DNA of 18,560 nt from an uncultured Lactobacillus sp. (GTDB lineage: Bacteria > Bacillota > Bacilli > Lactobacillales > Lactobacillaceae): NCBI GenBank assembly GCA_946482425.1, contig CAMLRO010000023.1, forward strand, positions 1-18,560, given 5' to 3'. The position numbers were made by a program, and so were the translations under genes. The notes under the pieces are model-generated. The model did not search any database. It was given only the letters and a program-made list of their open reading frames with translations, and was not told the DNA's origin. Shown in pieces: positions 1,315 through 15,485 of this stretch (the first letter of the stretch is position 1; each line of letters opens with the position of its first letter).

Positions 1315-1337
1315 GATTTTAAGTATAAGAACCAAAG

Positions 1338-1386
1338 ACTTTAGCTATCAGCTGTATTTTAATGATGCTAGCTAAAGTTTTTTATT
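1338..1386 (+). terminator. Rho-independent terminator after the nitroreductase gene
   Basis: ACTTTAGCTA (1338-1347) pairs perfectly with TAGCTAAAGT (1369-1378), with a possible short extension ATCA/TGAT inside the loop. The 3' arm runs into a T-rich tract (1378-1383). It lies 24 bases after the nitroreductase stop and before the dhaK promoter. Confidence 0.8.
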
Positions 1387-1439
1387 TTGAACAAAATATT
1401 CAATTTATTGCAACACAAATGGTTTAAATAAAGGTTACT

Positions 1440-1448
1440 TGGTATAAT
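1440..1448 (+). promoter_or_regulatory. Extended -10 promoter of the dhaKLM operon
   Basis: TGGTATAAT gives a perfect -10 hexamer (1443-1448) with the TGn extension at 1440-1442. The -35 region 17 bases upstream (TGGTTT) is poor, as is common for extended -10 promoters. Transcription would begin near 1455, inside the palindrome described next. Confidence 0.7.
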
Positions 1449-1453
1449 AGTTA

Positions 1454-1466
1454 TGTAAGCGTTACA
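1454..1466 (+). promoter_or_regulatory. Palindromic operator, LacI/CcpA (cre)-like, at the dha transcript start
   Basis: TGTAAGCGTTACA is a perfect inverted repeat, TGTAA and TTACA around GCG. The central AAGCG and the symmetry resemble LacI-family operators and catabolite-responsive elements, but it is one base shorter than the usual 14-base cre, so CcpA binding is plausible rather than certain. It covers the expected +1, where a bound repressor would block initiation. Catabolite repression of dihydroxyacetone use would make sense. Confidence 0.55.
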
Positions 1467-1491
1467 TTTATTTACTGAAGGAGCTAATTAC

Positions 1492-2487: not shown

Positions 2488-2504
2488 AAGAAGGGAAGAA
2501 TAAT

Positions 2505-3095
2505 ATGGGATTGACTGTAAACAATTTAATTGACTGGATGAATAATTTTTCTGCCAAAATCGAACAAAATAAGCAATATTTAAGTGACCTTGATACAGCC
2601 ATCGGTGATGGTGACCATGGCTTTAACATGAGTCGCGGGATGATCGCGGTTAGTCAAAAACTTTCCACTAAACCTGAAACTATCACTGACGTATTCAAGC
2701 AAATTGCCATGACTCTAATTTCGACGGTTGGTGGAGCTTCAGGCCCGCTGTATGGCACCGCTTTTTTAGAAATGGCCAAGAAAAGCGCTACTAGCGATGA
2801 CATTGGTGAATTACTGGACGCTGCTTTAGCTGGTATTAAAAAACGTGGCGGTGCTGAACCAGGAGACAAAACGATGGTTGATGTTTGGTCAGTACTCGTA
2901 CCTGAAGTAAAAGCGCATAATTTAACTCAAGAAAAAATTGATTCTGCTGTAACTGCAACTAAAGATTTGATTGCTAAAAAGGGTCGTGCTTCATATTTAG
3001 GAGAGAGATCAAAAGGTCATGTTGATCCCGGCTCGCAATCTAGTGGCTATCTCTTTGAAGCTTTACTAGAAACTAAAGGTATACTATGGGTTTAG
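2505..3095 (+). CDS. dhaL: PTS-dependent dihydroxyacetone kinase, ADP-binding subunit DhaL
   Basis: A 196-residue, all-helical nucleotide subunit. In the PTS-dependent system its bound ADP is not exchanged but is rephosphorylated in place by DhaM, and the phosphate is then passed to dihydroxyacetone on DhaK. The Mg-ADP ligands are visible: D30, D35 and D37 in DTAIGDGDHG, the same numbers as in E. coli DhaL. Other conserved pieces are GGASGPLYGT, GGAEPGDKTMVD and the C-terminal GRASYLGERSKGHVDPGS loop. The ATG at 2505 is chosen because the AGAAGGGAAG Shine-Dalgarno stretch (2488-2497) lies just before it. A TTG at 2481 would add eight residues and overlap dhaK. Its last ten bases overlap dhaM, suggesting translational coupling. 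Confidence 0.93.
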   Translation: MGLTVNNLIDWMNNFSAKIEQNKQYLSDLDTAIGDGDHGFNMSRGMIAVSQKLSTKPETITDVFKQIAMTLISTVGGASGPLYGTAFLEMAKKSATSDDIGELLDAALAGIKKRGGAEPGDKTMVDVWSVLVPEVKAHNLTQEKIDSAVTATKDLIAKKGRASYLGERSKGHVDPGSQSSGYLFEALLETKGILWV

Positions 3096-3457
3096 GCATT
3101 ACGTTAGTATCACATGTTCCTGAAATACCTACTGGATTGACTAAACTTTTAGATCAAGTTGCAAAAGATGTATCAATCACAACTGCTGGCGGAACAAATG
3201 AAGAAGATATAGGGACTAGCATGGACAAGGTTTTGCAGGCTTTTTCTGACAATAAAGCCGATGAAATTTTGGCTTTTTATGATTTAGGCAGTGCCAAAAT
3301 GAATATTGAATTAGCTACTGAAATGACTTCCAAAAAAATTCACTTATATGATGTTGCCTTCATCGAAGGGGCATATACAGCAGCCACTCTGATTGAAGCC
3401 GGAGTTAATTTATCTGAAATAGAAAAACAGCTTGAGTGCTTAAAAATAAAAAAATAG
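3086..3457 (+). CDS. dhaM: Dihydroxyacetone kinase phosphoryl donor DhaM (PTS EIIA-mannose-like)
   Basis: A 123-residue protein, the single-domain form of DhaM found in Firmicutes (E. coli DhaM carries extra HPr and EI-like domains). It receives phosphate from the general PTS proteins EI and HPr and rephosphorylates ADP on DhaL. The EIIA-mannose fold is indicated by GITLVSHVPEIPTGLTKLL, where H10 is the predicted phosphorylated histidine, followed by TAGGTNEEDIGTSMDKVL and the FYDLGSAKMNIE segment. The gene overlaps dhaL by ten bases and has a modest AAAGGT ribosome binding site inside dhaL. No clear terminator follows. About 300 AT-rich bases separate it from glpF. Confidence 0.92.
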   Translation: MGLGITLVSHVPEIPTGLTKLLDQVAKDVSITTAGGTNEEDIGTSMDKVLQAFSDNKADEILAFYDLGSAKMNIELATEMTSKKIHLYDVAFIEGAYTAATLIEAGVNLSEIEKQLECLKIKK

Positions 3458-3659
3458 GTTTAAAACAATATAATATTCGGCTTTGTCCTAATTTTTGGGT
3501 CATATCAAAATTTCATAGTTTACTTTTTTAATAAAAATAACAGATGCAAAAATATAGTGGCAATTTTTAAGAAGCAGAATACAAATATGCTAAAAGCAGG
3601 AATATTAAATAACAATTATCAAAAAAGGATTGCATTCACCATTTTATTTAAAGAAAGGG
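3458..3659. other. AT-rich spacer between dhaM and the glpF promoter
   Basis: This is the upstream part of a 308-base gene-free stretch between dhaM and glpF. I see no ORF with a ribosome binding site, no RNA gene and no convincing hairpin terminator here. The downstream part (3660-3765) carries the glpF promoter, an inverted repeat and the ribosome binding site, listed separately. Confidence 0.6.
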
Positions 3660-3688
3660 TTTACATAAGTAAGATTTTATAATATATT
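3660..3688 (+). promoter_or_regulatory. SigA-type promoter of glpF
   Basis: The -35 box TTTACA (3660-3665) and -10 box TATATT (3683-3688) are separated by exactly 17 bases. Transcription would start near 3695, giving a 5' untranslated leader of about 70 bases that contains the inverted repeat at 3722-3740. A second TATAAT at 3678-3683 overlaps but lacks a matched -35. Confidence 0.65.
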
Positions 3689-3721
3689 TTGTTTGGGAGT
3701 AATTTGCTACTAAACATTATT

Positions 3722-3740
3722 TTAGGTTTATTTAACCTAA
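3722..3740 (+). promoter_or_regulatory. Inverted repeat in the glpF leader (operator or RNA hairpin)
   Basis: TTAGGTTTATTTAACCTAA has perfect 7-base arms around a 5-base centre. It lies about 30 bases after the expected transcript start and 11 bases before AGGAGA (3751-3756). It could be a repressor operator or a weak RNA hairpin close to the ribosome binding site. The owner is unknown. Confidence 0.5.
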
Positions 3741-3765
3741 TAATCGAAGTAGGAGATTTTAAAAA

Positions 3766-4485
3766 ATGAATAATAGCTTATCAATGCAATTAGTGGGAGA
3801 GTTCATCGGAACTATCATCTTAGTATTGCTTGGAGATGGCGTTTGTGCTGGTGTCAATTTGAACAAGTCAAAAGCAAAAGGCAGCGGCTGGATCGTTATT
3901 TCTTTTGGTTGGGGTTTCGCTGTAACTTTCGGTGTATTTTGTGTTAGTTGGCTTTGTCCGGGACACTTTAATCCAGCGGTTTCATTAGGAATGGCTATTG
4001 CAAATAAATTGCCTTGGTCTTCAGTTTTGCCATATATGCTGGCACAGACTGCCGGTGGCTTTATCGGCGGTATCTTAGTTTGGTTAACTTATTTTCCTCA
4101 CTGGGAAGAAACAACTGATCAAGAAGGCATTCTAGGTTCTTTTGCAACTACACCAGCAATTAGAAACTATACGTGGAATTTCTTTACAGAAATGATTGCT
4201 ACATTTGTTTTGGTTTTCGGCTTGCTCGGACTAACTAATACTAAATTGGCATCGGGTCTCAATCCATTACTGGCAGGATTTTTGATCACAGCGATTTGTT
4301 TGTCCTTGGGAGGACCAACTGGTATCGCTATTAATCCAGCTCGTGATTTAGGACCAAGACTTGCTCACCAATTTATGCCAATTGCCAATAAAGGCGGTTC
4401 AGATTGGGCTTATAGTTGGGTGCCAGTCTTTGGACCACTTTTAGGTGGAGTAATTGCAGCATTATTATTCAATGTGATTGTCTAA
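3766..4485 (+). CDS. glpF: Glycerol uptake facilitator (aquaglyceroporin)
   Basis: A 239-residue membrane channel of the MIP family with six predicted transmembrane helices and two re-entrant half-helices. It lets glycerol, and probably dihydroxyacetone or other small neutral solutes, diffuse across the membrane. The two signature loops are GHFNPAVSLG (N69-P70-A71) and INPARDLGPR (N190-P191-A192). Asp194 after NPAR is typical of the glycerol-conducting branch rather than strict aquaporins, and Arg193 is the selectivity-filter arginine. AGGAGA at 3751-3756 sets the start. It sits downstream of dhaKLM on the same strand with its own promoter, so a joint role in triose/glycerol uptake is likely. 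A strong hairpin terminator ends the unit. Confidence 0.93.
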   Translation: MNNSLSMQLVGEFIGTIILVLLGDGVCAGVNLNKSKAKGSGWIVISFGWGFAVTFGVFCVSWLCPGHFNPAVSLGMAIANKLPWSSVLPYMLAQTAGGFIGGILVWLTYFPHWEETTDQEGILGSFATTPAIRNYTWNFFTEMIATFVLVFGLLGLTNTKLASGLNPLLAGFLITAICLSLGGPTGIAINPARDLGPRLAHQFMPIANKGGSDWAYSWVPVFGPLLGGVIAALLFNVIV

Positions 4486-4492
4486 TGAAAAA

Positions 4493-4522
4493 GGCTCACG
4501 TTAACAGGACGTGAGTCTTTTT
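4493..4522 (+). terminator. Rho-independent terminator after glpF
   Basis: GGCTCACGT (4493-4501) pairs with ACGTGAGTC (4509-4517), nine pairs including one G-U, around a 7-base loop. It is followed by TTTTTG and preceded by an A-run, so it may also work for the converging LysR gene on the other strand. Confidence 0.9.
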
Positions 4523-4534
4523 GTTTGCCCAAAA

Positions 4535-5428
4535 TTATTGATATTCATCTGGTTTAAAATGTCGCAGTATTTCGATCCCTTTGCGCTGATACTTGTTAGG
4601 TATGAAGCTTTTTCTCATTGCTATCTGCATGTAGGCCCACAATTTTTGTCCCGGTTTTAACCGAATGACGTGAATATCAGAAACCTCTTTTAAGCTGCTT
4701 TCCATGGCAAGAGCAATTCCTACATTGCGTTTAACTAATTCAATCATCATTCTCATTGTAGTAGCAGTGTATGAAATCTGTGGCGTAAAATCACCTAACT
4801 TCGCTTCCTGTTCCAAACATTCTCTGGTTAAATAGCCTCTTTTGCGAGCGACAAACTTGCGGTTGCGCAAGTCGGATGCACTAATTTGATGGACATCCCG
4901 CCACTTGTCGCTCGTACTGGTAATAATGACTAGTTCAGTTCTTTGCAAGTTATGAATAAAATATTCGGGGTCATTTATAGGAACCATCCAGGAATATATT
5001 GCTACATCGACGGTGCCGTCGGTTAAGTCAGAAAATGCGTTAGCCGATCTTTCAATTCTAGATTCAATTAGATTGGCAATATTTGCTTGATAAAATTTTT
5101 GAATAATATCGGCGATGTAAAGACTACCGGCTTCCCCAGAAAAGGCAAGCCGAATTTTTTTGTCACTGGCATGCATCACATCATAATTGATACTGGCGAT
5201 ATCTTGCAATAGAATTTTTGCTCTTTTATAAAGTAAGTCGCCGGCATCGGTCAAAGTTATTTTACTTTTGCGATTTTTTTGCAATATTAGTGGATCATCG
5301 AACTTATCTGCCAGCCGCTTCACTGCCATGGAAATTGTGGGCTGGGTAACATCAAAAAATGCTGCTGTGGTCGTATAGTTACCAGTTTCGACTAATTTAC
5401 AAAAATATAATAAGTCTTTTTCATTCAT
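4535..5428 (-). CDS. LysR-family transcriptional regulator, divergent from the tandem flavoproteins
   Basis: A 297-residue LysR-type regulator of usual length. The N-terminal winged helix-turn-helix spans about residues 1-65 (MNEKDLLYFCKLVETGNYTT, then DVTQPTISMAVKRLADKF and the LTDAG wing). A linker helix and the periplasmic-binding-protein-like effector domain (about 90-295) follow. Such proteins activate a divergent target operon when an effector, often the substrate of that operon, binds. It is transcribed away from the flavoprotein/transporter operon across a 190-base gap that holds an imperfect palindrome (5497-5516). The ATG is supported by AGGAAGT (complement of 5433-5439). By position it resembles HcrR of the L. 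plantarum hydroxycinnamate reductase locus, but orthology is not shown by what I can see. Confidence 0.88.
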   Translation of the reverse strand: MNEKDLLYFCKLVETGNYTTTAAFFDVTQPTISMAVKRLADKFDDPLILQKNRKSKITLTDAGDLLYKRAKILLQDIASINYDVMHASDKKIRLAFSGEAGSLYIADIIQKFYQANIANLIESRIERSANAFSDLTDGTVDVAIYSWMVPINDPEYFIHNLQRTELVIITSTSDKWRDVHQISASDLRNRKFVARKRGYLTRECLEQEAKLGDFTPQISYTATTMRMMIELVKRNVGIALAMESSLKEVSDIHVIRLKPGQKLWAYMQIAMRKSFIPNKYQRKGIEILRHFKPDEYQ

Positions 5429-5496
5429 GAGTACTTCCTAAATAAATAAAATTTATAAATATATCTAATTAAATTATATTAAATTTAACTTTAATG

Positions 5497-5516
5497 TACA
5501 ACAACAAGTTGCTGTA
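5497..5516. promoter_or_regulatory. Candidate LysR operator in the divergent intergenic region
   Basis: TACAACAACAAGTTGCTGTA is a 20-base interrupted palindrome with eight of nine arm pairs matching around a 2-base centre. It lies roughly midway between the divergent LysR gene and the first flavoprotein gene, where an LTTR recognition site is expected. I found no clear -35/-10 pair for the flavoprotein operon nearby, as is usual for activator-dependent promoters. Confidence 0.5.
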
Positions 5517-5621
5517 ATAGATTTTTGTATTATGAAACTAAATTATTTTTCTAAAAAATTTAATTAGACTTAAAAAGTTGGTCAAGATATATTTAGGTTA
5601 AGAATAGTTTATAAGAAAGTG

Positions 5622-7418
5622 ATGGTGAAAAATTTGATCTACGATTCAACTCTCAAATGGGACGCCGTTTACGACGTAATTGTAGTCGGATTCGGCGGAG
5701 CTGGAGCCGGTGCAGCAAGATTCGCAGCAGATAATAATGCGCACGTTCTGCTCATTGACTCAGCTCCTGAAGGTCATGAAGGTGGCAATACCAGGTATGC
5801 TGGTGGTGCTTTTGCTTGGAGCGATAATTTTGCTGATCTGCGTGAATATTATAAGCAAACTTATTATCCCTTTAAGTATGATCCAAAAGATTTAGACGCT
5901 TTTGTCAATAATGTTTTGAAGATGAAGGAGTACTCTCAAAAATATTTTGGCATTGAAGCACAATACACCGGCAGAAGACCTCAAGGAGAATATCCAGAAT
6001 ACAAGCATGCAGAAACAATGCGCTCACAAAGCATGACTGCTGGTATGTATAATGGCGGATTCTGGAAATTATTACGTAAAAAAGTTTACGAGCGTTTAGA
6101 CAAAATTGATGTTTGGTTTGAAAGTCCTGCACAACATTTAATTCAGGACCCCAACACTAAAACCATTTTAGGTGTGCAAATTAAACATCAAGGTATAAAT
6201 AGAAATGTGGCTGCCAGAAATGGTGTAGTTCTATCATGTGGTGGCTTTGAAAATAACCAAGATATGGTTCAAACATTTTTAGGTCAAGGTTCTTTAGCTC
6301 CAATTGGTACTTTATATAATCAAGGTAAAGGAATTGATTTGGCAGTTGAAGCTGGCGCTAGACTGTGGCATATGTCCAACTATGATTCACATGGTTTTTC
6401 TTTAAGAGAAGGTCAGCCAAGAGAAAAATTTGCCTATATGATCAACTGGAAGAACTTGTTTAATGGCAGTATTTTCGTTGCTGGCGATGACGGCACCCGG
6501 TATTACCGTGAAGACGAAGAAGACCGTCATGGTTACAAATATAACCACGGCAACTGGATTATGCAGCCTAACCAAAATCATCCACATATCATCATGGATC
6601 AAAGGCAATTTGAGCAACTAGCTCATGATGATTCAGATAAGGCCGAACAAATTAAGAGCCTGATCACCTATGCAATAAAAGCTGAAACTATTGCCGAATT
6701 AGCTGACAAGATTGCCGCACCAAAATTGGCTGAAGCTGTCAGTGATTTTAACTTTTTAGTCAATGAAAAAAAGCGCGATATGTTTTTAAATCGTAAAATT
6801 GAAACAATGCGTGCTTTTGGCGCAGGTCCATATTATGCTATCCCAATTCGCCACAACATTCTGCATACACATGGTGGCGCTCGTCGTAATGAAAATTGCG
6901 AAGTTTTAGACATGGAGAATAATGTTATTCCTCATTTATATGAAGCTGGTGAATTAGGAGATATTTTTGCTACCAAATATGTTGGTGCAAACAGTATTGC
7001 TGATTTGTTAATTTCTGGCAAAATTGCAGGAGAAAATGCTGCGTGGCCAAAAAGAAAAATGGCTGAAGTTGATGTAGTTACAGGTGCTTCAAAAAACCCT
7101 GATCTAAAATCTGACGCCCATGCTTCTTCAACTGATTTTGAAGCTGGACCTAATCAGGGAATTGGAATTAGTGAAAATGGCATTAATGATGTCCCAATTG
7201 TGGTGCGCGTTACGATGTCAGGTGATAAGATTTCCCACATTGAAACACTGCAAGAAAAAGAAACTCCTTATTTGGGAGGTAAAGCAATTCCCATTCTAAC
7301 TAATGAAATGATCGAAAAGCAAACTACAGAGGTTGATGCGGTCAGTGGCGCAAGTACAACTAGTGCTGCTTTTAAAGAAGCGGTCAACCAAGCAATTGAG
7401 AACGCTGAAAAGCAGTAA
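5622..7418 (+). CDS. Fumarate reductase-like flavoprotein, FAD domain plus C-terminal FMN_bind domain (first of tandem pair)
   Basis: A 598-residue soluble flavoprotein without a signal peptide. The N-terminal FAD dinucleotide fold has GFGGAGAG (residues 23-30) and the HEGGNTRYAGGAF loop. The fumarate-reductase/KstD-like FAD_binding_2 domain runs to about residue 475, with GELGDIFATKYVGANS near its end. An FMN_bind domain covers about 515-595 and has DAVSGASTTS (D572-T580), the place where FMN is normally esterified by ApbE. Relatives reduce activated C=C bonds, such as fumarate, urocanate and hydroxycinnamates. H257 (NYDSHGF) and H415/H417 (LHTHGG) occupy catalytic-histidine-like positions, but the usual NRLGGN arginine is replaced (K452 region). 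GTG 5619, ATG 5622 and GTG 5625 are all possible starts, with only AGAAAG as ribosome binding site. The second flavoprotein begins 12 bases downstream. Confidence 0.85.
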   Translation: MVKNLIYDSTLKWDAVYDVIVVGFGGAGAGAARFAADNNAHVLLIDSAPEGHEGGNTRYAGGAFAWSDNFADLREYYKQTYYPFKYDPKDLDAFVNNVLKMKEYSQKYFGIEAQYTGRRPQGEYPEYKHAETMRSQSMTAGMYNGGFWKLLRKKVYERLDKIDVWFESPAQHLIQDPNTKTILGVQIKHQGINRNVAARNGVVLSCGGFENNQDMVQTFLGQGSLAPIGTLYNQGKGIDLAVEAGARLWHMSNYDSHGFSLREGQPREKFAYMINWKNLFNGSIFVAGDDGTRYYREDEEDRHGYKYNHGNWIMQPNQNHPHIIMDQRQFEQLAHDDSDKAEQIKSLITYAIKAETIAELADKIAAPKLAEAVSDFNFLVNEKKRDMFLNRKIETMRAFGAGPYYAIPIRHNILHTHGGARRNENCEVLDMENNVIPHLYEAGELGDIFATKYVGANSIADLLISGKIAGENAAWPKRKMAEVDVVTGASKNPDLKSDAHASSTDFEAGPNQGIGISENGINDVPIVVRVTMSGDKISHIETLQEKETPYLGGKAIPILTNEMIEKQTTEVDAVSGASTTSAAFKEAVNQAIENAEKQ

Positions 7419-7430
7419 AGAAGTGCAAAA

Positions 7431-9266
7431 ATGAAAATCAACGAAAAAACTAAGTGGAATGGTGTGTATGATGTAGTCGTTTTAGGTTTCGGTGGAGCCG
7501 GAGGCACGGCAGCTCGTTTTGCTGCAGAAAATGGTGCTCAAGTCTTATTAGTTGACGCTGCTCCTTATGGTCATGAGGGTGGTAACACCCGTTATTCAGC
7601 ACAGCATGTTGCTATGGCACATGATAGAAAGAAGATTGCTGAATATTATGAGCAGCTGGCAGCGCCATATAATTTTGATCAGAAAACAATGGCTGCTTAT
7701 CTTGATGGCTTTGTTAATATGCCGCAATATTTTAAAAAGTATTTTGGTATTGATCCTTTTATCTGGTCACGTGATAATCAACCGGGTGACCATTTAGCAA
7801 AGAAAAAGAATTTATGTGAGTATCCTGAATATCGCGGCTCTGAAACCTTTGATTTTGCCCTGGTTCATAATCAAGACTTTGATGCTGAATTATGGAAAGT
7901 AATTCGTGCTCAAGTCGTCAAAAATGCTGCCAACATTGATGTCTGGCTTAATTCTAAAGCAGAACATTTATTGCAGGACGAGACAACTGGTGAAATAGCT
8001 GGAGTAATTATTAATCGTAACAAGAAACAATATTATATTCATGCTCGCAAAGGAGTAATTGTTGCTACAGGTGGCTTTGAAAATAATAAGCAGATGCAGC
8101 AGGATTACCTGCACGTCACTAAATTAACCCCGCTGGGCACTCTCTATAATAAGGGTGACGGGATTAAAATGACTGCAGAAGTTGGAGCAAAAATGTGGCA
8201 CATGAGCAATTATGAGTCATTAGGCATCGTTCCCAGCTATGTAATTGCTGAAGGTGAAAATGAGCGTGGTCGGCAGGTTAGCGGTTGGCAAAATGTCAAA
8301 TCAGGTGCAATTTTTGCGGTGGCAGACGACGGCACCCGCTTTATGCGCGAAGACGCTAAATTCAGACATGGTCATATAGCTGAACACGGGGACTATTTAT
8401 TGCCTCACGCTTACGACAATGCATGGCTAGTCTTTGATAATCAGCAATATCAAAAGTTTGTCTTAGAACAAAAGCAAGGAAAGCTCAAGTACGGTAAGTT
8501 CTTTGACAAGGTTGTTAGTGCAGGTTCACTGACTGAATTAGCCCAAACGATGAATGTACCAGCCGCAAATCTGAAAAATACTGTTTTGCAATTTAACGAG
8601 TTTGCCACTAACGGCAAGGATTTGGAATTTGGTCGTGCACCTGAGTCAATGACTAGTTTCGATTTAAAAGATGACGTCCATGCAGTTAAATTGGCTCCCG
8701 CAGTGCTTAATACCCAAGGTGGACCAGAACATGATGAGTTTGCCCGTGTACTTGATGTCAACGATCAACCAATCAAACGCCTCTACACAGCTGGTGAGCT
8801 TGGCGGAATGTGCGTCAATCGTTACCAGGGCGGTGGCAACTTAGCTGAATGCTTGATTTTTGGCAAAATTGCTGGAGAAAATGCTGCCAAGTTAGAGCCA
8901 ATTGAGGATTCGATTAATTTAACGGAGAAATTACCGCGAATTAATGATCTTTTGGATGGAGAAAAGGACGATCAAATTGAGCTGGGACAAAATCAGTTTC
9001 TAGGATCTTCTGAAGCAGGTATTGGCGGCAGGATTTTGGTTCGTGTTACTTATTTTGATAATAAAATCAAAAAAATCGAAGTACTGGAAAATCATGAAAC
9101 GGAAGGAATTGGAGCTGTAGCCATTGACCGTATACCCCAGGAAATGGTAAGCAATAATTCTACGGATGTTGATGCAGTTTCAGGAGCTTCTACCACAACT
9201 AATGCTTTAAAGGAAGCCGTGAATGCGGCGATTAAGAAAGCACAAAATAGCTCTAAAGGAGAATAA
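7431..9266 (+). CDS. Fumarate reductase-like flavoprotein, FAD domain plus C-terminal FMN_bind domain (second of tandem pair)
   Basis: A 611-residue cytosolic paralogue of the preceding protein with the same domain order. The FAD-binding fold has GFGGAGGTAARFA near residues 19-31 and HEGGNTRY. The reductase domain contains DDGTRFMREDAKFRHG, GELGGMCVNRYQGGGN and FGKIAGENAA. The C-terminal FMN_bind domain contains DAVSGASTTTNALKEA (from D581). The catalytic-site pattern is the mirror image of its neighbour: R464 (NRYQGGGN) is kept, but the histidine of the substrate loop is Leu264 (NYESLGI) and the HTMGG-like stretch reads NTQGG. The two may therefore act on different substrates or form one complex. 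It lies 12 bases after the first flavoprotein and five bases before the transporter, so the three are clearly one operon. The substrate is unknown. Confidence 0.85.
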   Translation: MKINEKTKWNGVYDVVVLGFGGAGGTAARFAAENGAQVLLVDAAPYGHEGGNTRYSAQHVAMAHDRKKIAEYYEQLAAPYNFDQKTMAAYLDGFVNMPQYFKKYFGIDPFIWSRDNQPGDHLAKKKNLCEYPEYRGSETFDFALVHNQDFDAELWKVIRAQVVKNAANIDVWLNSKAEHLLQDETTGEIAGVIINRNKKQYYIHARKGVIVATGGFENNKQMQQDYLHVTKLTPLGTLYNKGDGIKMTAEVGAKMWHMSNYESLGIVPSYVIAEGENERGRQVSGWQNVKSGAIFAVADDGTRFMREDAKFRHGHIAEHGDYLLPHAYDNAWLVFDNQQYQKFVLEQKQGKLKYGKFFDKVVSAGSLTELAQTMNVPAANLKNTVLQFNEFATNGKDLEFGRAPESMTSFDLKDDVHAVKLAPAVLNTQGGPEHDEFARVLDVNDQPIKRLYTAGELGGMCVNRYQGGGNLAECLIFGKIAGENAAKLEPIEDSINLTEKLPRINDLLDGEKDDQIELGQNQFLGSSEAGIGGRILVRVTYFDNKIKKIEVLENHETEGIGAVAIDRIPQEMVSNNSTDVDAVSGASTTTNALKEAVNAAIKKAQNSSKGE

Positions 9267-9270
9267 AGAA

Positions 9271-10686
9271 ATGTTAGATAAAATACAATGGAAAAAGTGG
9301 GTTTTACCACTAGCTATTGGCATTGGCTTATGGCTGTTAACTCCATTAAAACCAGCGGCAATTAACGTTCAAGCTTGGCACCTATTCGCCATATTTATTG
9401 CAACTATAATTGCTTGTGTAACTAAACCATTACCAATGATGGCAACTACAATAATAGCGGTGGTGATTGCTACATTAACCGGTATTTTTAAGATGGAAGA
9501 AGTCACTGCCGGTTTTGGTAATTCCACGGCATGGATGGTCGCTATGTGTATGTTTATGGCGGCCGGCTTTATTAAATCAGGTCTTGGTAAAAGAATTGCC
9601 TACTTCTTTGTCAAAACTTTTGGCAAGAGAACTTTAGGTTTGGCTTATGCCTTATCGTTAGTGGAAACTGTTTTGGCAATCGGTATCCCAAGTAACAACG
9701 CTCGTGTTAACGGTATTATGTACCCAATTATTGATAACTTATCAAGAGAAATGGGTTCAGATCCTAAAAAGGGAACTGAGCGTGACATGGGTTCATTCCT
9801 TGTCTTTACAGAATACGAAGTTAACATCGTTACATCCACCATGTTTCTAACTGGTTTAGCCGGTAACATGGTGGCATTAGGAATAGCAAAGACCCAAAAC
9901 GTTACTATTTCCTGGATGCAATGGTTCGTAGCTGCAATCGTACCGGGCATAATTTCCTTAATATTAGTACCTTTTATTCTATATAAAATTTACCCGCCTA
10001 AGATCAAAGAAACACCTAATGCTCATGCTTGGGCAAACAAAAAATTACAAGAATTAGGCAAAATGACAGCTGCAGAAAAAATTATGGGTGTGGTTTTTGT
10101 CCTGTCAGTTGCATTATGGCTAATAGGTTCTAAGTTTGGCATTGACGCTACTTTAGTCAGCTTTATTGCAGTTGCATTACTATTGGTATTTGGCGTCATC
10201 AATGTTAAGGATATTTTAGGTCAAAGTTTTGCTTGGAACATCTTAACTTGGCTTTCAATTATCATGTTGATGTCTCAAAAATTAATGACTTTGGGCTTTT
10301 TCCCTTGGTTCTCAAAGACTTTAGGTAGTGCACTTCATGGTATGAATTGGGTTTTAGTACTGGTAATCTTATTCTTGGTTTACTTTTACCTCCATTATTT
10401 ATTCCCAAGTGTTTCTACACAAATTTCTGCTCTATATGCAGGATTTCTCTCAATTGCGATCGGTGCCGGAGTGCCACCTATGATGGCAGCGTTAATGCTA
10501 GCTTTAGACGGTTCTTTATACTTGTCAACTTCAAGCTATTCGGCAGGTCCTGCCGCTTTGCTTTCTTCAACAGGCTACGTTTCTAACAAAGATTGGTGGA
10601 AACTAAGCGCCATAATTGGTGTTGTACTTAACATTATCTGGTTAGGCGGCGGTCTGGTTTGGACTAAAGTTATCGGCATGTGGTAA
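9271..10686 (+). CDS. DASS-family (SLC13/CitT-like) organic anion transporter
   Basis: A 471-residue integral membrane protein with about 11-12 hydrophobic segments. It belongs to the divalent anion:Na+ symporter/antiporter family that includes CitT and TtdT-type dicarboxylate carriers. The first half carries IPSNNARVNGIMYPI, matching the SNT-type substrate/sodium hairpin of CitT-like members. The second-half equivalent reads YLSTSSYSAGPAALLSSTGY and lacks the usual SNT or THY spelling. The ATG at 9271 is chosen because AAAGGAG (9255-9261) precedes it. An upstream in-frame start would overlap the flavoprotein gene by 14 codons. Co-transcription with the two reductases suggests it imports their organic-acid substrate, perhaps exchanging it for the reduced product, as CitT exchanges citrate for succinate. 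A strong terminator follows. Confidence 0.85.
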   Translation: MLDKIQWKKWVLPLAIGIGLWLLTPLKPAAINVQAWHLFAIFIATIIACVTKPLPMMATTIIAVVIATLTGIFKMEEVTAGFGNSTAWMVAMCMFMAAGFIKSGLGKRIAYFFVKTFGKRTLGLAYALSLVETVLAIGIPSNNARVNGIMYPIIDNLSREMGSDPKKGTERDMGSFLVFTEYEVNIVTSTMFLTGLAGNMVALGIAKTQNVTISWMQWFVAAIVPGIISLILVPFILYKIYPPKIKETPNAHAWANKKLQELGKMTAAEKIMGVVFVLSVALWLIGSKFGIDATLVSFIAVALLLVFGVINVKDILGQSFAWNILTWLSIIMLMSQKLMTLGFFPWFSKTLGSALHGMNWVLVLVILFLVYFYLHYLFPSVSTQISALYAGFLSIAIGAGVPPMMAALMLALDGSLYLSTSSYSAGPAALLSSTGYVSNKDWWKLSAIIGVVLNIIWLGGGLVWTKVIGMW

Positions 10687-10688
10687 TC

Positions 10689-10721
10689 AAAAGGGCTTTG
10701 ATCTTGACTCAAGGCCTTTTT
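10689..10721 (+). terminator. Rho-independent terminator of the flavoprotein-transporter operon
   Basis: AAAAGGGCTTTGA (10689-10701) pairs with TCAAGGCCTTTTT (10709-10721) over 13 positions with two G-U pairs and a 7-base loop. It starts three bases after the transporter stop and ends in a T-run, closing the operon. Confidence 0.92.
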
Positions 10722-10751
10722 GTTATTCTCTAAATTTTTAGCGTTAGGTAG

Positions 10752-10780
10752 TTGTTAGTTGAGCGGCTCTAGTTTAATAT
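10752..10780 (+). promoter_or_regulatory. SigA-type promoter of the asparaginase-cutC unit
   Basis: The -35 box TTGTTA (10752-10757) and -10 box TAATAT (10775-10780) are spaced by 17 bases. It lies between the upstream terminator and the asparaginase start, giving a leader of about 25 bases with AAGGA (10800-10804). Confidence 0.65.
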
Positions 10781-10812
10781 TATTACTATATTTAAGAAAA
10801 AGGACGAACAGA

Positions 10813-11778
10813 ATGAAAAATTGGGCTGCAATATCTACTTGGAGTATGTCATATGATGGGCTGGTAAAGGCCGGTAATCTGCTTAAAAAAGGCGCAAATG
10901 CTGGTGATGCTGTTGAAAATTTGATTATGGAAGTAGAATCATATCCCTTATATAAATCTGTAGGTTATGGCGGTTTGCCGAATGAGAATGGTGTCGTCCA
11001 AATGGACGCGGCTTTTATGAATGGAGATACCTTGGCTCAAGGCTCAGTAGCAGCAATTGAAAATGTCAAACACGCTGTTTCAGTAGCTAGAAAGTTAAGT
11101 TTAAATAAGACTAACAGCTTTTTAGTAGGAGAAGGAGCTACGAAGTTTGCGATGAAAAATGGTTTTGAAATGACCAATATGCTGACAGAAAGAGCAAAGG
11201 CAATTTGGCAAGAAAAAGTCAAAGAGCAGGCTCAGCCTGGACTGCACCCTTATGATGGTCATGATACTGTTGGGGCAATAACACTTGATCAAAATAATTC
11301 AATGGCTGCAGCCACTTCAACTTCAGGTTTATTTATGAAAAAAGAGGGTCGCATTGGTGATTCGCCTTTGTCAGGGTCAGGTTTTTATGCAGATAGCAAT
11401 ATTGGTGCAGCTGCAGCCACTGGTTTAGGTGAAGATATAATGAAAGGGTGCCTTTCATATGAAATTGTGCGAAAAATGTCAGAAGGTATGTCTCCACAGC
11501 AAGCTTGTGATGCTGCGCTTTATCCTTTTTGCCATGATTTAAAACACCGCTATGGTCAGGTAGGAGAAATTTCTTTAATCGCCTTAAATAACAAAGGTGA
11601 ATGGGGAGTAGCAACCAATGTTGAATTTCCATTTTGCGTTGCCTGTAATGACCAGGATGCAAAGATTTTAATGGCTAATCCTGGTAAAAACAATAAAACC
11701 CAAATTGAGCCTATATCGCAAACATGGCTGGATAATTATCAAAAAGAAATCAATGCTCCAGTCGGTGAAAAATTTTAA
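10813..11778 (+). CDS. Glycosylasparaginase-like Ntn hydrolase (peptidase family T2)
   Basis: A 321-residue protein of the N-terminal-nucleophile hydrolase family that includes N4-(beta-N-acetylglucosaminyl)-L-asparaginase and isoaspartyl peptidase/asparaginase. The proenzyme cleaves itself before a threonine that becomes the N-terminal nucleophile. Here this is T152 in YDGHDTVGAI, and the HDT spelling is typical of the glycosylasparaginase branch. Substrate-site elements follow: GRIGDSPLSGSGFYAD and GAAAATGLGEDI. The N-terminal WAAISTWSMSYDGL and the GYGGLPNENGVVQMDAA segment also fit this branch. No signal peptide is seen, so it would act on imported glyco-asparagine or on a related amide. 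The ATG at 10813 has AAGGA eight bases upstream, and an in-frame TTG at 10759 without such a site is rejected. cutC follows after 14 bases. Confidence 0.85.
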   Translation: MKNWAAISTWSMSYDGLVKAGNLLKKGANAGDAVENLIMEVESYPLYKSVGYGGLPNENGVVQMDAAFMNGDTLAQGSVAAIENVKHAVSVARKLSLNKTNSFLVGEGATKFAMKNGFEMTNMLTERAKAIWQEKVKEQAQPGLHPYDGHDTVGAITLDQNNSMAAATSTSGLFMKKEGRIGDSPLSGSGFYADSNIGAAAATGLGEDIMKGCLSYEIVRKMSEGMSPQQACDAALYPFCHDLKHRYGQVGEISLIALNNKGEWGVATNVEFPFCVACNDQDAKILMANPGKNNKTQIEPISQTWLDNYQKEINAPVGEKF

Positions 11779-11792
11779 GAGATGGTTTTTTG

Positions 11793-12428
11793 ATGCTTAA
11801 AGAAGTATGTGTAGAGAATTTTACTAATATTCCGCATGTTATTGAAAATGGTGCTGACAGGATAGAATTGAACAACGACCTTTCATTAGGTGGAACTACA
11901 CCAACATTTGGTGTCATAAAAAGGTCAATAATTTATGCTAACAGGGTAAAAATTCCAGTAATTGTGATGATTAGACCTAGAGGCGGCAATTTTATTTATA
12001 ATGAAGATGAAATTGCGATTATGGCTGATGATATGGCTGTTGCTGCTAAATTAGGCGCTCGAGGAGTCGCTTTTGGCTGTTTAACTGATCAGAATCAGTT
12101 AAATCGAGCTCAAATGGAACAATTAATTGTTTTAGCTCATTCCTTAAATCTTACTGTGGTGATGCATATGGCTTTTGACCAAATATCTGAAACAAGACAA
12201 AGAGATGAACTAAACTGGCTAATTGAGCAAAAAGTAGCAAGGATTTTGACACATGGGGGAGATTTGAAATTTCCCATTGAAGCCACAATTACTCACCTTA
12301 AGCAGATCCTTGACTGGTCAAACGGAAAGATAGAAATTTTACCAGGTGGCGGTATTACGACTAAAAATAGGGATGAAATAGCTGAAGCATTGCATGTTAA
12401 TCAACTTCATGGGTCAAAAATTGTCTAG
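11793..12428 (+). CDS. cutC: CutC-family TIM-barrel protein
   Basis: A 211-residue CutC-like protein. Typical features are LKEVCVEN at the start, GADRIELNNDLSLGGTTP, VMIRPRGGNFIYNEDE, VVMHMAFDQI, RILTHGG and LPGGGIT, all in the order of the family's TIM barrel. It ends soon after LHGSKIV, a short form I believe is normal in lactobacilli, rather than the roughly 240-250 residue E. coli form. CutC was named for copper homeostasis, but that E. coli phenotype was later ascribed to the MicL small RNA lying in the gene, so the biochemical role is open. The ribosome binding site is weak (GAGATGG region), and TTG 11790 directly before the ATG is an alternative start. Tight linkage to the glycosylasparaginase suggests a sugar- or amino-acid-linked role rather than a copper role. 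Confidence 0.85.
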   Translation: MLKEVCVENFTNIPHVIENGADRIELNNDLSLGGTTPTFGVIKRSIIYANRVKIPVIVMIRPRGGNFIYNEDEIAIMADDMAVAAKLGARGVAFGCLTDQNQLNRAQMEQLIVLAHSLNLTVVMHMAFDQISETRQRDELNWLIEQKVARILTHGGDLKFPIEATITHLKQILDWSNGKIEILPGGGITTKNRDEIAEALHVNQLHGSKIV

Positions 12429-12483
12429 ATTGACCCTGAGAAATAATAAAGTTTAATAGAGTATACTAAAGCACTCTGACCTG

Positions 12484-12492
12484 TGGTATAAT
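12484..12492 (+). promoter_or_regulatory. Orphan extended -10 promoter downstream of cutC
   Basis: TGGTATAAT is a perfect -10 hexamer with a TGn extension, the same nine bases as at the dhaK promoter. The -35 position 17 bases upstream (TACTAA) is weak. No plus-strand ORF follows. The next plus-strand element is the terminator at 12568-12598. Confidence 0.6.
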
Positions 12493-12498
12493 TTTGGC

Positions 12499-12598
12499 GC
12501 ATTTAAATTGGTCTCCGATCTATTTGAGCTTGGTAAATAATATCAAGTCTAAGACAAAATTTATACGAAAAAAGGCGTTGAATTCAACGTCTTTTTTT
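12499..12598 (+). ncRNA. Candidate small RNA between cutC and the third flavoprotein gene
   Basis: About 100 bases lie between an extended -10 promoter and a strong intrinsic terminator with no start codon preceded by a ribosome binding site. The predicted transcript would contain a central hairpin, CTTGGTA (12529-12535) pairing with TATCAAG (12541-12547) around AATAA, and end in the GC-cored terminator stem. It does not match an RNA family I can name. The alternative is a leftover promoter next to a terminator that serves only the flanking genes. Confidence 0.4.
12568..12598. terminator. Bidirectional terminator between cutC/sRNA and the third flavoprotein gene
   Basis: AAAAAAGGCGTTG (12568-12580) pairs with CAACGTCTTTTTT (12585-12597) around AATT, a near-perfect palindrome with an A-run before and a T-run after. 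It can serve the plus-strand unit and the converging minus-strand flavoprotein gene. A second perfect hairpin, GTCTGGAAA (12599-12607) with TTTCCAGAC (12615-12623), lies beside it. Confidence 0.88.
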
Positions 12599-12640
12599 GT
12601 CTGGAAATACTTTTTTTCCAGACTTATTCTGTAGATATTT

Positions 12641-14455
12641 TTAAAGATTTTGGATATATTTCTCTGCGTTTTTAGCTGCTTGGCGTCCTGAATTGACGTT
12701 GTGTGCACAGGCTGAACCACCTAAAGTTATTGTGTAAACATCTCTATACTGCATGGTTGAATCCATACCGGAAGCATATAAACCAGGAATTTTTTCAAAA
12801 TCATTGTTTATGACTTCGAATTTTCTGTTAGAACCAATGCCTCCTAGACCAATCAAGTTGGAAGGATCTAATCGAGCAATATAATACGGGCCTTCTTTCA
12901 TCGAAATAAGCATATCTTGATCTTTATTAAACTCTAGGTCTTTACCATTGTCACAAAACGAATTATAATCATTCACTGTTTTTACTAATACATCTGAAGG
13001 AAGATTTACTTTTTCAGCTAATTCTGCTATTGAATTTGCTTTAAATAATGAATTACCTTCGTTTTCTTTTAGTGCTTTAGCTAAAATTTCATCGGCTTTT
13101 GCAACATTCTGGGTTAGTTTATCAAAAATTTCTTGTGTAAATATTTCATATGATACTTTGGTAGCTTTAATTGCCATTCTTTGATAAAGCAAATTATATT
13201 TTTTAACATTTTCATTTACAAAACGTCTACCATCTTGATTGACAAAAATTACCGGTCCTCCTGATGGCAAAGACATAAATCCGTTTATTGGATCTAGATA
13301 CAAATGAACTCCTTCATGTGGGAAAGCTTGAATATAGTTCATCATGAATTCTGGTGATTCTTTTAGCATGTCTTTTGCACCGACTGACATAGCCATTTGG
13401 TAACCATCACCAGTGTTGCTAGGCATTGAACAGTAATGAATATTCTTTGTTGACCAACCCTGTTGTTCCAAAAGATCAGGGTTATGACCAACACCTCCAG
13501 TAGCCAATAGGGTTGCCTTTGCATTGATTTTTATATATCCATTTGGTGTTTTGGCATATACTCCTTTAATAGACCCGTTTTTTTCAATAATGCTCGTAGC
13601 TGATGTTTCCAGCAGAAATTTTACATTAAGCTCATCAGCCTTCTTTTTCATATAAGGCACGTATCCAACAGATGCAAAACCACCTTTAAACCAATGAAAA
13701 GTAGGAAACATGCAAGTACCATGATAATCGTCAACCTTTGTCAACTGCACTCCCAGATTAACCAGCCAATCGATATTAGCAGCAGAATTATTGATTAAAT
13801 CAACCCAAAACGAACCATCAGCTCTATATTGTCCCAGTTCAGCTTCTTTGGCAATTATGTCTTCTTTTTCAGCGTGTATGCCCGCTGCTTGTTGCATTTT
13901 AGTATTAATTCCAAAAATACCTTCAACGCCGCCACCGTTTCCAGCTACAAAACCATTTTTGTCAATAACAATTGTATCCATTTTGAGTTGGCGAGCTTGA
14001 ACTGCAGCAGCTAATCCAGATATGCCGGCACCGACAATTAAAAAGTCCGTACTATATTCTTTAATAATATGATTTGGCTTTTTTCGCCAAAATGAATAGC
14101 TATTATCTAAACGCTTTTTTGTGTTTACCTCTAGTGGTACAACTTTTTGATCAGCTTCAGTTTTAAAATCTTGGGGATTTCCTCCAGCTTGCTCAATTAC
14201 CTTTTCGACTGCATCTAGTAAACCGTTAACTGAATGTGTCGCTCCTGAGATAGCATCAACTGATAAGCTCTGCTCATTTATAATTTCCTTAGGAATTTTT
14301 GTAAATACTGTTTCTTCCAAACTTCCTGGAATCATTGCTTTTTGAGTCATAATTTTACTAATTTTGTTATTACTTATTTCTACCTTTATTGGCATTTGCT
14401 CATTTTCATATTCATGAGCAACAACTTGATAAGTACCTGATGTTAGATTTTTCAC
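12641..14455 (-). CDS. FMN_bind plus FAD_binding_2 flavoprotein reductase (fumarate reductase-like, FMN domain first)
   Basis: A 604-residue cytosolic flavoprotein. The FMN_bind domain comes first (about residues 5-90), with VDAISGATHSVNG and T73 as the expected FMN attachment residue. The FAD_binding_2 domain follows (about 135-600), with FLIVGAGISGLAAA (GAGISG at 142-147), GNGGGVEGIFGIN, NQDGRRFVNEN and GLYASGMDS near the end. Positions that hold catalytic Arg and His in fumarate reductases look replaced: NENVKKYNLL, LIGLGGIG and YTITLGGSA. A non-dicarboxylate substrate is therefore likely. The start is GTG at 14453-14455, with AAAGGGG (complement of 14465-14471) nine bases away. It is transcribed divergently from a LysR gene, a layout that recalls the vinylphenol reductase locus of L. 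plantarum, though this is an analogy only. Confidence 0.85.
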   Translation of the reverse strand: MKNLTSGTYQVVAHEYENEQMPIKVEISNNKISKIMTQKAMIPGSLEETVFTKIPKEIINEQSLSVDAISGATHSVNGLLDAVEKVIEQAGGNPQDFKTEADQKVVPLEVNTKKRLDNSYSFWRKKPNHIIKEYSTDFLIVGAGISGLAAAVQARQLKMDTIVIDKNGFVAGNGGGVEGIFGINTKMQQAAGIHAEKEDIIAKEAELGQYRADGSFWVDLINNSAANIDWLVNLGVQLTKVDDYHGTCMFPTFHWFKGGFASVGYVPYMKKKADELNVKFLLETSATSIIEKNGSIKGVYAKTPNGYIKINAKATLLATGGVGHNPDLLEQQGWSTKNIHYCSMPSNTGDGYQMAMSVGAKDMLKESPEFMMNYIQAFPHEGVHLYLDPINGFMSLPSGGPVIFVNQDGRRFVNENVKKYNLLYQRMAIKATKVSYEIFTQEIFDKLTQNVAKADEILAKALKENEGNSLFKANSIAELAEKVNLPSDVLVKTVNDYNSFCDNGKDLEFNKDQDMLISMKEGPYYIARLDPSNLIGLGGIGSNRKFEVINNDFEKIPGLYASGMDSTMQYRDVYTITLGGSACAHNVNSGRQAAKNAEKYIQNL

Positions 14456-14505
14456 TTTAAATAACCCCTTTCAATAATCTATTTAAGCTAATATCTACAA
14501 AATTA

Positions 14506-14532
14506 AATATAACATTGTTCATTTGTTTACAA
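14506..14532 (-). promoter_or_regulatory. Promoter of the third flavoprotein gene
   Basis: On the minus strand TGTTATATT (complement of 14506-14514) is an extended -10 element. TTGTAA (complement of 14527-14532) lies 15 bases upstream as a short-spaced -35. The -35 is inside the palindrome at 14521-14534, as expected for regulation by the divergent LysR protein. Confidence 0.5.
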
Positions 14533-14534
14533 AT
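14521..14534. promoter_or_regulatory. Candidate LysR operator (T-N11-A palindrome)
   Basis: ATTTGTTTACAAAT has perfect 6-base arms around TT and contains the T-N11-A spacing of LysR-type sites. It lies in the 133-base divergent region and overlaps the -35 of the flavoprotein promoter. A second, wider repeat, ATAATC (14533-14538) and GATTAT (14551-14556), lies beside it towards the LysR gene and could be the autoregulatory half. Confidence 0.5.
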
Positions 14535-14588
14535 AATCTAAAATATGATTGATTATCAGTTTCACTTATTAAAGAAAGAGAATAAAAA

Positions 14589-15485
14589 ATGAATCTTGAA
14601 CACTTAGAAGTATTCGTAAATTTAGCGGAGACTTTAAATTTTTCTCGAACGGCCATTGAAATGAACCTTTCACAATCAGCAGTATCACAAATAATTTCAT
14701 CAATGGAAAAAGAGCTTGACTTTTTATTATTTAAAAGAAGCAGAAAGCAAGTGGATTTAACAGAGAGTGGCAAAGAGTTTTACTATTCTATAAAACCGCT
14801 ATTAAGCGTTTATGATAAGTCGGTACAAAAGGCAAAATCAGCTGCAGCTAAAAAAAGAAATAATTTAACTATCGGTTATAGCGGAACGCCATATGAAATT
14901 TCAATATTACCAAAGATAATTAAATATTATGAAAGAACTCATAAAGAAAATGCCTTATCTATTTTTTTAGAAAATTACGCACACAATGAATTAAAAGACA
15001 GACTAATTAATGGTGATTGTGACATTATATTTACGATGCCGGATATCATAGCCAAAATGGAAAACGTTAAGTATATAAATCTAGTTACGGGGCAGTATTG
15101 TGTTAACTTTTATAAGCCTGTTTTTGATAAACAGAACTGCTTTAAAATTTCAGGATTAAGCAATTTTAGGTTAGTTTTTTCTGATAGTAAGTGGTGTCCA
15201 CCGTCACAAAATGCTTTACAGAAATATATTATTGCCATGAATGAAAATGTTAATATTGCATATGCCAATAATATTTTAAGTGCTTATTTGATGGTTAAAG
15301 CAGGGCTGGGAATTGGCATTTGGGCAGATTTTGTCAATGCTTATCATGATGAAACAATTGTTAGTGTTCCTTTAAAATATGCTATTAAGCCCAATTATGG
15401 AATTGCTATGCTAAATTATGGTGAACCAATAAGTGCTAAACGTTTTGCCAATTGGCTCACACAAAACTTTTCAAATTTTTGTTGA
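14589..15485 (+). CDS. LysR-family transcriptional regulator, divergent from the third flavoprotein
   Basis: A 298-residue LysR-type regulator. The N-terminal helix-turn-helix is MNLEHLEVFVNLAETLNFSR, then LSQSAVSQIISSMEKELDF and the LFKRSRKQVDLTESG wing. The effector-binding domain follows from about residue 90 (LTIGYSGTPYEISILP). It is preceded by AGAAAGAG (14573-14580) at good spacing. It is divergent from the FMN/FAD flavoprotein gene, so that gene is its probable target and the enzyme's substrate or product its probable effector. It is only distantly similar to the LysR at 4535-5428, so the two modules probably sense different molecules. The brnQ -35 box overlaps its stop codon, which leaves no room for a terminator. 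Confidence 0.88.
   Translation: MNLEHLEVFVNLAETLNFSRTAIEMNLSQSAVSQIISSMEKELDFLLFKRSRKQVDLTESGKEFYYSIKPLLSVYDKSVQKAKSAAAKKRNNLTIGYSGTPYEISILPKIIKYYERTHKENALSIFLENYAHNELKDRLINGDCDIIFTMPDIIAKMENVKYINLVTGQYCVNFYKPVFDKQNCFKISGLSNFRLVFSDSKWCPPSQNALQKYIIAMNENVNIAYANNILSAYLMVKAGLGIGIWADFVNAYHDETIVSVPLKYAIKPNYGIAMLNYGEPISAKRFANWLTQNFSNFC

Follow-up and report, generated by a model that had tools for sequence, protein, structure and literature searches.

The 18,560-nucleotide window analysed here (contig CAMLRO010000023.1 of an uncultured Lactobacillus sp.) holds, at 4535-15485, three genes for flavoproteins that join an FMN_bind to a FAD_binding_2 domain (F1, F2 and F3), a gene for a DASS-family transporter and two LysR-type regulator genes, each divergent from flavoprotein genes. 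Which compounds do these flavoproteins act on, and where do their electrons come from? The answer that we favour, with moderate confidence, is that the locus contains two plug-in anaerobic reductase cassettes served by a shared electron supply, a pair of FMN reductases that we name FRed1 and FRed2 in this analysis; F1 would act on a di- or tricarboxylate and F3 on another alkene. An earlier note on this DNA had listed the positions of these genes, the divergence of the LysR genes, the three flavoproteins and the single DASS, and open reading frames, Pfam and NCBIfam bore all of this out. The features of the two cassettes are as follows.

4535-5428, minus strand: LysR1, LysR-type regulator divergent from the F1 operon (PF00126 and PF03466)
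5442-5458, plus strand: putative LysR-type box ATAAATAAAATTTATAA with a T-N11-A dyad, in the gap between LysR1 and F1 (conserved pattern ATAA-N6-TTTATAA)
5619-7418, plus strand: F1, predicted FAD_binding_2-FMN_bind flavoprotein reductase of 599 amino acids (aa) (Pfam; flavinylation-type motif)
7431-9266, plus strand: F2, predicted FAD_binding_2-FMN_bind flavoprotein reductase of 611 aa (Pfam, synteny, tree)
9271-10686, plus strand: DASS-family anion transporter (Pfam Na_sulph_symp; NCBIfam 'dass'; many orthologues of 471 aa)
12641-14455, minus strand: F3, FMN_bind-FAD_binding_2 flavoprotein, VprA-like (Pfam, NCBIfam, tree; flavinylation-type motif)
14589-15485, plus strand: LysR2, LysR-type regulator divergent from F3 (Pfam HTH_1 and LysR_substrate)

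Both regulators score above the Pfam cut-offs for HTH_1 and LysR_substrate. For DASS the ATG at 9271, which lies behind AAAGGAG, is a likelier start than 9223, judging by sequence and by the length of the orthologues. The best named relatives of the proteins belong to Lactobacillus sp. wkB10, L. juensis, L. kullabergensis and L. huangpiensis, which we take to be honeybee-gut Firm-5 lactobacilli; the host of the window is a honeybee-gut Lactobacillus. Genome-level statements refer to G001, the nearest genome examined, which has 76% of words in common with the source (handles beginning with G, C and L are ours, for genomes, contigs and loci).

According to Pfam, FMN_bind is C-terminal in F1 and F2 and N-terminal in F3. 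The motif D-x-x-[ST]-G-A-[ST] is found in all three (DAVSGASTT at F1 573 and at F2 581, DAISGATHS at F3 67). ApbE attaches FMN at this motif of FMN_bind proteins, and G001 encodes an ApbE; with motif and domain both present, F1, F2 and F3 are predicted to be flavinylated by ApbE. No export signal is visible by eye in the N-termini of F1, F2 and F3. AlphaFold models of F1 and F3 (mean pLDDT 75.0 and 77.2, pTM 0.66) returned the known fold, with a pLDDT below 50 at residues 300-318 of F1.

The earlier note saw two copies of the same logic. The layout is indeed alike, but the modules are not copies of one another, because the order of their domains is opposite and because they fall into different clades of a maximum-likelihood tree of 30 FAD domains; a duplication of one module from the other was rejected. 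F1, F2, four paralogues from G001 and a fusion protein of G178 form one clade (100/100), while F3 and its relatives stand beside four single-domain proteins of 480-487 aa (99/97), most of which adjoin MFS-type carriers. Three long-branch rows of the tree are of unsure place and some inner forks are open. Domain order and tree thus point to three modules of two enzyme lineages. Elsewhere in G001 (L064, L066, L067, L071) there are reductases of 480-500 aa without FMN_bind, several beside MFS-type carriers and LysR genes. A fused F1-F2 protein, suggested by open frames of 1214-1230 aa, was rejected since the DNA of L053 has a stop between F1 and F2. Open frames of 1211-1230 aa are reported over tandem flavoprotein genes, and an intervening stop was present at both places checked (L053, L073).

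Comparison of 21 named Lactobacillus loci with F1 revealed how constant the first module is. LysR1 belongs to the F1 cluster in 19 (a partial LysR1 at the contig end of L044 makes 20) and DASS accompanies F1 in 18; all three genes occur together in 18, the other three loci being short contigs or having F1 at a contig end. The order is LysR1-DASS-F1 in L056, L058 and L062. A family-wide search of 397 genomes gave an F1 match at E<=1e-165 in 16; four of these genomes belong to three genera other than Lactobacillus. LysR1-F1-DASS is present in G399, G057 and G041 (the last two counted in the same genus by the tool, one place examined in each), and G394 has the same arrangement, its LysR1 being truncated where the contig stops. 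In G112, LysR1-F1 is joined by a CitMHS-type carrier instead of DASS (192 bits, below the cut-off of 260). A plasmid collection yielded 41 records that match F1, 36 of them from Lactiplantibacillus, and at least 14 records carry relatives at 59.5-60.3% identity. One such L. plantarum plasmid, typed conjugative, encodes LysR, an FAD-dependent oxidoreductase and an anion permease; another L. plantarum plasmid has a LysR gene with a 45% relative of F1. As a cassette, LysR1-F1-DASS is portable: it spans Lactobacillus, reaches into further genera and rides on a plasmid of L. plantarum. L. psittaci has an F1 split by an in-frame TGA (L059, G036 C15), probably a decaying copy.

F2 and the F3 module are less constant. 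Fifteen of the 21 named loci contain F2 by a cut of 50% identity and 75% length. In six of these 15 (L055, L056, L060, L061, L062, L063) it has its own divergent LysR gene, 26-31% identical to LysR1, and in nine it lies inside the F1 operon with no LysR of its own. Because of those six loci F2 looks like a once-independent LysR module that was captured into the F1 operon. F3-LysR2 occupies the same place in only three named loci (L045, L046, L051) and is therefore a variable insertion; its one plasmid match, on a Loigolactobacillus backii plasmid, also has a divergent LysR gene. With F2 under its own LysR in 6/15 loci and the F3 module in 3/21, the matched pair with a single logic proposed in the earlier note finds no support; the picture of LysR-controlled, cytoplasmic, flavinylated C=C reductases acting as electron sinks is retained as the probable one, together with the link to DASS and the box described below. 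At 16845 of L045 (L. kimbladii) the F3 frame is only 435 aa, and this copy may be broken.

The gap between LysR1 and F1 was sought in 28 sources (21 named loci, six others and the window) and obtained from 23; L057 lacks LysR1, L056, L058 and L062 have DASS in between, and in L111 the best LysR match is a distant second gene. The pattern ATAA-N6-TTTATAA occurs in 20 of the 23 gaps, in 19 at the same place near LysR1 and in L060 elsewhere in the gap, and was not found in the gaps of L050, L113 and L114. The 23 gaps are all different, yet several come from close relatives, so that the count overstates independence. Mononucleotide shuffles gave the pattern in 33 of 4600 gaps, and the window contains a single match, at 5442-5458, where 0.08 are expected. 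The box contains a T-N11-A with a dyad (TAAATAAAATTTA); a T-N11-A dyad is the LysR-type layout. The pattern is also present in L109 and L110, from another genus, and on the L. plantarum plasmid of L135. We regard 5442-5458 as a conserved LysR-type box and putative LysR1 site.

Do F1 and DASS form a second fumarate reductase system, DASS importing fumarate or malate and F1 making succinate? Searched with phmmer against solved structures, F1, F2 and F3 are all nearest to the urocanate reductase UrdA and to flavocytochrome c3, both of Shewanella, and fold searches with the F1 and F3 models gave the same nearest structures at ~21-28% identity, 3-ketosteroid dehydrogenases following close behind. 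We take the catalytic set of soluble fumarate reductases (Fcc3/Frd) to be H365, E378, R381, R402, H504 and R544; Fcc3 numbering was placed by counting along the phmmer alignments to solved structures and a MAFFT alignment. F1 keeps the equivalent of H365 (H258), which favours the fumarate reading, but E378 and R381 are replaced, L415 stands at H504 and Y454 at R544 (H416 takes the place of H505, and K453 adjoins that of R544). F2 has L264 at H365, L426 at H504 and Y465 at R544, with no residue of the set surely kept. None is kept in F3, which has F378 at H365, Y420 at R402, L534 at H504 and Y574 at or near R544. At the place of R402 in F1 and F2 the phmmer and MAFFT alignments disagree; R303 of F1 is a candidate, and the R-H-G motif to which it belongs recurs in six of the seven proteins of the F1/F2 clade in the MAFFT alignment. 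H258, R303, H416, H418 and K453 are identical in 26/26 F1 sequences, and F1 differs from F2 and from the G178 fusion at H258, H416, H418 and K453. By this residue comparison F1, F2 and F3 all lack the soluble fumarate reductase set, and a fumarate reductase identity for all three was rejected; as far as residues and tree allow, they are not jointly orthologous to a known fumarate reductase, the outcome that would have told against the earlier note. UrdA, which we take to be exported and to have FMN_bind before the FAD domain, differs from F1 and F2 in domain order; F3 has the UrdA order and lacks arginines at R402 and R544. The likeness of F1-F3 to UrdA and flavocytochrome c3 is thus one of distant sequence and, for F1 and F3, of fold: the catalytic residues are mostly lost, no export signal is seen and there is no haem domain.

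The carrier bears on the same question. The window DASS scores 360.8 bits against NCBIfam TIGR00785 'dass' (cut-off 198.6) and is homologous over its full length to 6wu1/6wtw (452.9 bits), which we take to be the dicarboxylate exchanger LaINDY; this homology is the second point for fumarate. Its family motifs are PSN[NI]AR and PS[VI][STA]TQ in 23/23 sequences, compared with PSNSAR and ASGTAH in LaINDY, so that the substrate may differ as well; the difference in the second motif speaks against the fumarate reading. The true counterpart of LaINDY is another gene of G001. A separate locus of that genome encodes a 465-aa protein, Frd465 (C6:303897-305171), in which all six catalytic positions are kept (H255, E270, R273, R294, H397, R437; E270 and R273 read from the sequence) and which exceeds the NCBIfam flavocytochrome c cut-offs (608 versus 542, 488 versus 285). 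Frd465 is preceded by a gene of the fumarase family (584 bits, below the cut-off of 665); the third gene past Frd465 is a LaINDY-type DASS with 880 bits to LaINDY. This locus is likely the fumarate route of G001, with the window modules being something else, and a second fumarate reductase formed by F1 and DASS appears quite improbable. In full, the row at 2412-8553 of L074 (G001 C6:300000-309000) reads fumarase-family gene, Frd465, L-lactate dehydrogenase, a 236-aa gene and the LaINDY-type DASS. Frd465 has Tyr at the H505 place of flavocytochrome c3.

The NCBIfam matches bring up another candidate acid. F1 has TcuA (NF006130) as its best match, and F1 could be an aconitate reductase that makes tricarballylate (the TcuA reaction in reverse), its tricarboxylate being carried by DASS or CitMHS; the CitMHS-type gene beside F1 in G112 agrees with this. 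The TcuA scores of F1 and F2 (153.1 and 151.5 bits) are far from the cut-off of 369, however, and the CitMHS score too is below its own. F2 and the HcrB-like fusion of G178 match TcuA as well, and none of the titles given by the one literature search on this point (20 of 22 papers) concerned such an enzyme in lactobacilli. We consider aconitate reduction distinctly unlikely. The broader assignment of F1 to a di- or tricarboxylate is the most likely one on present sequence evidence, because a DASS or CitMHS carrier adjoins F1.

Hydroxycinnamates are a further candidate: F1 and F2 could be HcrB-like reductases for the coumaric or caffeic acids of pollen. They share a clade with the HcrAB-like FMN_red fusion, HcrB itself being compared by description only. 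The HcrR-HcrA-HcrB system of L. plantarum resembles the window in its LysR control, and C=C reduction by Hcr is described as NADH-driven, HcrB requiring NADH and FMN (PMC10295242). HcrB is described as a protein of 812 aa annotated as an FMN reductase (PMC11126511). A study of gnotobiotic bees reports that three phenolamides bearing coumaroyl or caffeoyl groups became depleted only when Firm-5 was present; flavonoids were enriched among the substrates of Firm-5 and another member, and several members made use of quinate and citrate (PMC5726620). These metabolite data fit phenolic substrates for some reductases and do not single out F1-F3. HcrB has an FMN reductase part and a partner, HcrA, whereas F1 and F2, at 599 and 611 aa against ~812 aa, have no FMN_red domain, and the partner of F1 is DASS. 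F1 travels with DASS or CitMHS-type carriers, and its residues H258, H416 and K453 are not shared by F2 or the HcrB-like protein. Orthologues of F1 also occur in L. jensenii, L. hominis and L. acetotolerans, which are presumably not pollen feeders. For F1 and F2 together we rate hydroxycinnamate reduction as unlikely, if still worth keeping in mind; F2 taken singly is open to this reading.

For F3 the closest named protein is VprA (NF053717), its best NCBIfam match. The vinylphenol reductase system VprR-VprA of L. plantarum has an adjacent LysR gene and a FAD_binding_2 core, as F3 does, but the score of F3 (276.6 bits) is far below the cut-off of 600 and its N-terminal FMN_bind lies outside the 481-position VprA profile. 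The earlier note spoke of imported substrates; this suits the F1 module with its DASS or CitMHS carrier, and not F3, which has no transporter here.

The electrons probably come from elsewhere, as the cassettes include no electron donor and the window contains no obvious NADH:flavin reductase gene serving F1-F3 (a small nitroreductase-family protein at 808-1314 lies outside both modules). In G001, FMN_bind is matched 14 times; the genome encodes a single ApbE and two FMN_red proteins, and these three genes lie in one cluster, TetR-FRed1-FRed2-phosphatase-ApbE. Of 75 Lactobacillus genomes, 73 have a match to the FRed pair, 71 of them with two copies; the linkage to ApbE holds for all 30 of the loci in the genus that match best and for 17 of 20 selected divergent ones. 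Among Lactobacillaceae, ApbE is present in 133/135 genomes with FMN_bind versus 45/166 without (Fisher p 8e-43, kinship ignored). One locus of G178 combines ApbE, an FMN_red gene and an 824-aa FMN_red-FAD_binding_2-FMN_bind protein that is 46% identical to F1. Outside Lactobacillus, ~60 of the FMN_bind matches listed lie in open frames of 765-840 aa, the size of HcrB (counted by eye), and none of the Lactobacillus matches listed does; for this reason the genus seems to use unfused reductases with a shared donor. The cassettes probably draw their electrons in common from the ApbE-linked FRed pair. The FRedA/FRedB pair of L. johnsonii, likewise a tandem FMN_red pair, is described as an NADH:FMN reductase heterodimer with measured activity (PMC4500961). 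Its known trait is H2O2 formation; a connection with ApbE and FMN_bind reductases is a proposal of this analysis, the term ApbE being absent from the main text of that article.

In G001 the cluster lies at 5949-9621 of L076 (C11:180000-196000), its phosphatase-like gene (tyrosine-phosphatase-like) being named from the sequence by eye, and ApbE was present in 47 of the 50 Lactobacillus loci examined. In G178 (L112, C1:1674000-1693900) ApbE, FMN_red and fusion adjoin at 6568-10566 and are flanked by 813- and 780-aa genes with activase-like neighbours, again by eye.

The mechanism that we propose for the two cassettes runs as follows. Each LysR would sense a compound and switch on its flavoprotein; electrons would pass from NADH to the soluble FRed1/FRed2 pair, encoded elsewhere, then to the FMN that ApbE has attached to FMN_bind, then to FAD and finally to the C=C bond of the substrate, and NAD+ would be regenerated in fermentation. 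In module 1 (LysR1-F1-F2-DASS) DASS would import an unsaturated organic acid and F1 reduce it, export of the product by exchange being possible; F2 would be a second reductase, once independent and captured into the operon. Module 2 (LysR2-F3) would reduce another kind of alkene, probably a phenolic one or at any rate one that is no dicarboxylate.

Several points weigh against this proposal. TcuA, to which F1 is matched best, is a dehydrogenase, contrary to the reductive direction. ApbE lies outside the stretch read in three of the 20 divergent loci, G231 and G311 carry FMN_bind without ApbE, and no FMN_bind match came up at E<=1e-4 in G012 and G045, which both possess FRed and ApbE. The relatedness of the genomes inflates the co-occurrence of ApbE and FMN_bind. 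FRed1/FRed2 are equated with FRedA/FRedB of L. johnsonii by family, size and genus only, without alignment. Gene content, the layout of the regulators, the box, the conservation and mobility of the cassette, the residue patterns, the joint occurrence of ApbE and FMN_bind and the linkage within the hub are observed directly. From sequence we infer the activity, induction and substrates of the cassettes, and likewise the electron path, its reductive direction and the transport of the substrate by DASS.

To a wider and more tentative idea we give a little less than an even chance: a hub-and-spoke soluble respiration, in which one NADH:FMN reductase pair and one flavinyl transferase charge up to ~20 interchangeable and mobile LysR-switched FMN_bind reductases, each with its own unsaturated compound, and in which H2O2 from FRedA/FRedB is a side effect, arising in air, of a hub that works anaerobically. 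FMN_bind matches range from 0 to 22 per genome in the 75 Lactobacillus genomes (median 4), and counts of 8-15 were obtained for the six genomes that carry F1 at >=95% and reach a completeness of 90% or more. FAD_binding_2 gives at least 20 matches in G001 at E<=1e-15; seven Lactobacillus genomes reach at least 20, and 46/75 have 2-9. Bee-gut strains are among those with the larger reductase sets in the genus. The modules of the window are part of a larger set, a point missing from the inventory of the earlier note, correct as that was for the genes that it named. If the idea were true, FRedA/FRedB of lactobacilli would gain a physiological acceptor, and the presence of a dozen or more FMN_bind reductases beside a single ApbE in a fermenting gut symbiont would be explained. 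New electron acceptors would be gained by way of a small LysR-reductase-carrier cassette without a donor gene, and one could test how compounds of the bee diet bear on redox balance in a core symbiont of the gut. LysR-controlled soluble flavin ene-reductases are a known kind; here they take the form of portable cassettes without a donor. A literature search that took in few subscription papers did not find these modules described, nor a linkage of FRed with ApbE or a hub function in lactobacilli.

Between the two modules lie further features, of which the earlier note left the asparaginase and CutC unmentioned.

10688-10722, plus strand: terminator-like hairpin after F1-F2-DASS (14 pairs, T-rich tail)
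10813-11778 (approximate start), plus strand: Asparaginase_2 gene, glycosylasparaginase-type, judged a neighbour outside the cassette (Pfam; behind the hairpin; in 6/21 named loci)
11790-12428, plus strand: CutC-family gene, judged a neighbour outside the cassette (Pfam; in 6/21 named loci)

Could the asparaginase and CutC genes be members of the operon, aspartate from glycoasparagine feeding fumarate to F1? They are co-directional and adjacent, the Asparaginase_2 protein is closest to glycosylasparaginase (193 bits), and both genes are present in five of the 21 named loci (L043, L045, L046, L047, L051). L048 has CutC without the asparaginase, L050 has the asparaginase at a contig end and L044 is too short to judge. 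Both are absent from the named loci L049 and L052-L063 and from the six loci L109-L114, and the hairpin, directly after the DASS stop, stands ahead of them; operon membership was rejected on these grounds. Since the site of F1 is not fumarate-reductase-like either, we hold the proposal to be very improbable. The hairpin is suggestive of the end of the F1-F2-DASS unit; terminator-like sites number 16 in the region versus 8.6 in shuffles, so that a single site is only suggestive. Rfam and tRNA scans of the window gave no matches.

Three minor observations concern the surroundings. The pairing of a glycosylasparaginase-type gene with CutC (window 10813-12428) is a lead on the role of CutC. Upstream of LysR1 lie dhaKLM and glpF (window 1492-4485), placed there in 7/21 named loci, which puts glycerol/dihydroxyacetone use beside an electron sink. 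Elsewhere in G001 (L069, C11:8000-24000) the row at 846-8941 comprises genes like those for acyl-CoA dehydrogenase and Etf (both named by eye), an acyl-CoA ligase, a weak MFS match and an FMN_bind reductase, an arrangement unusual for Lactobacillus.

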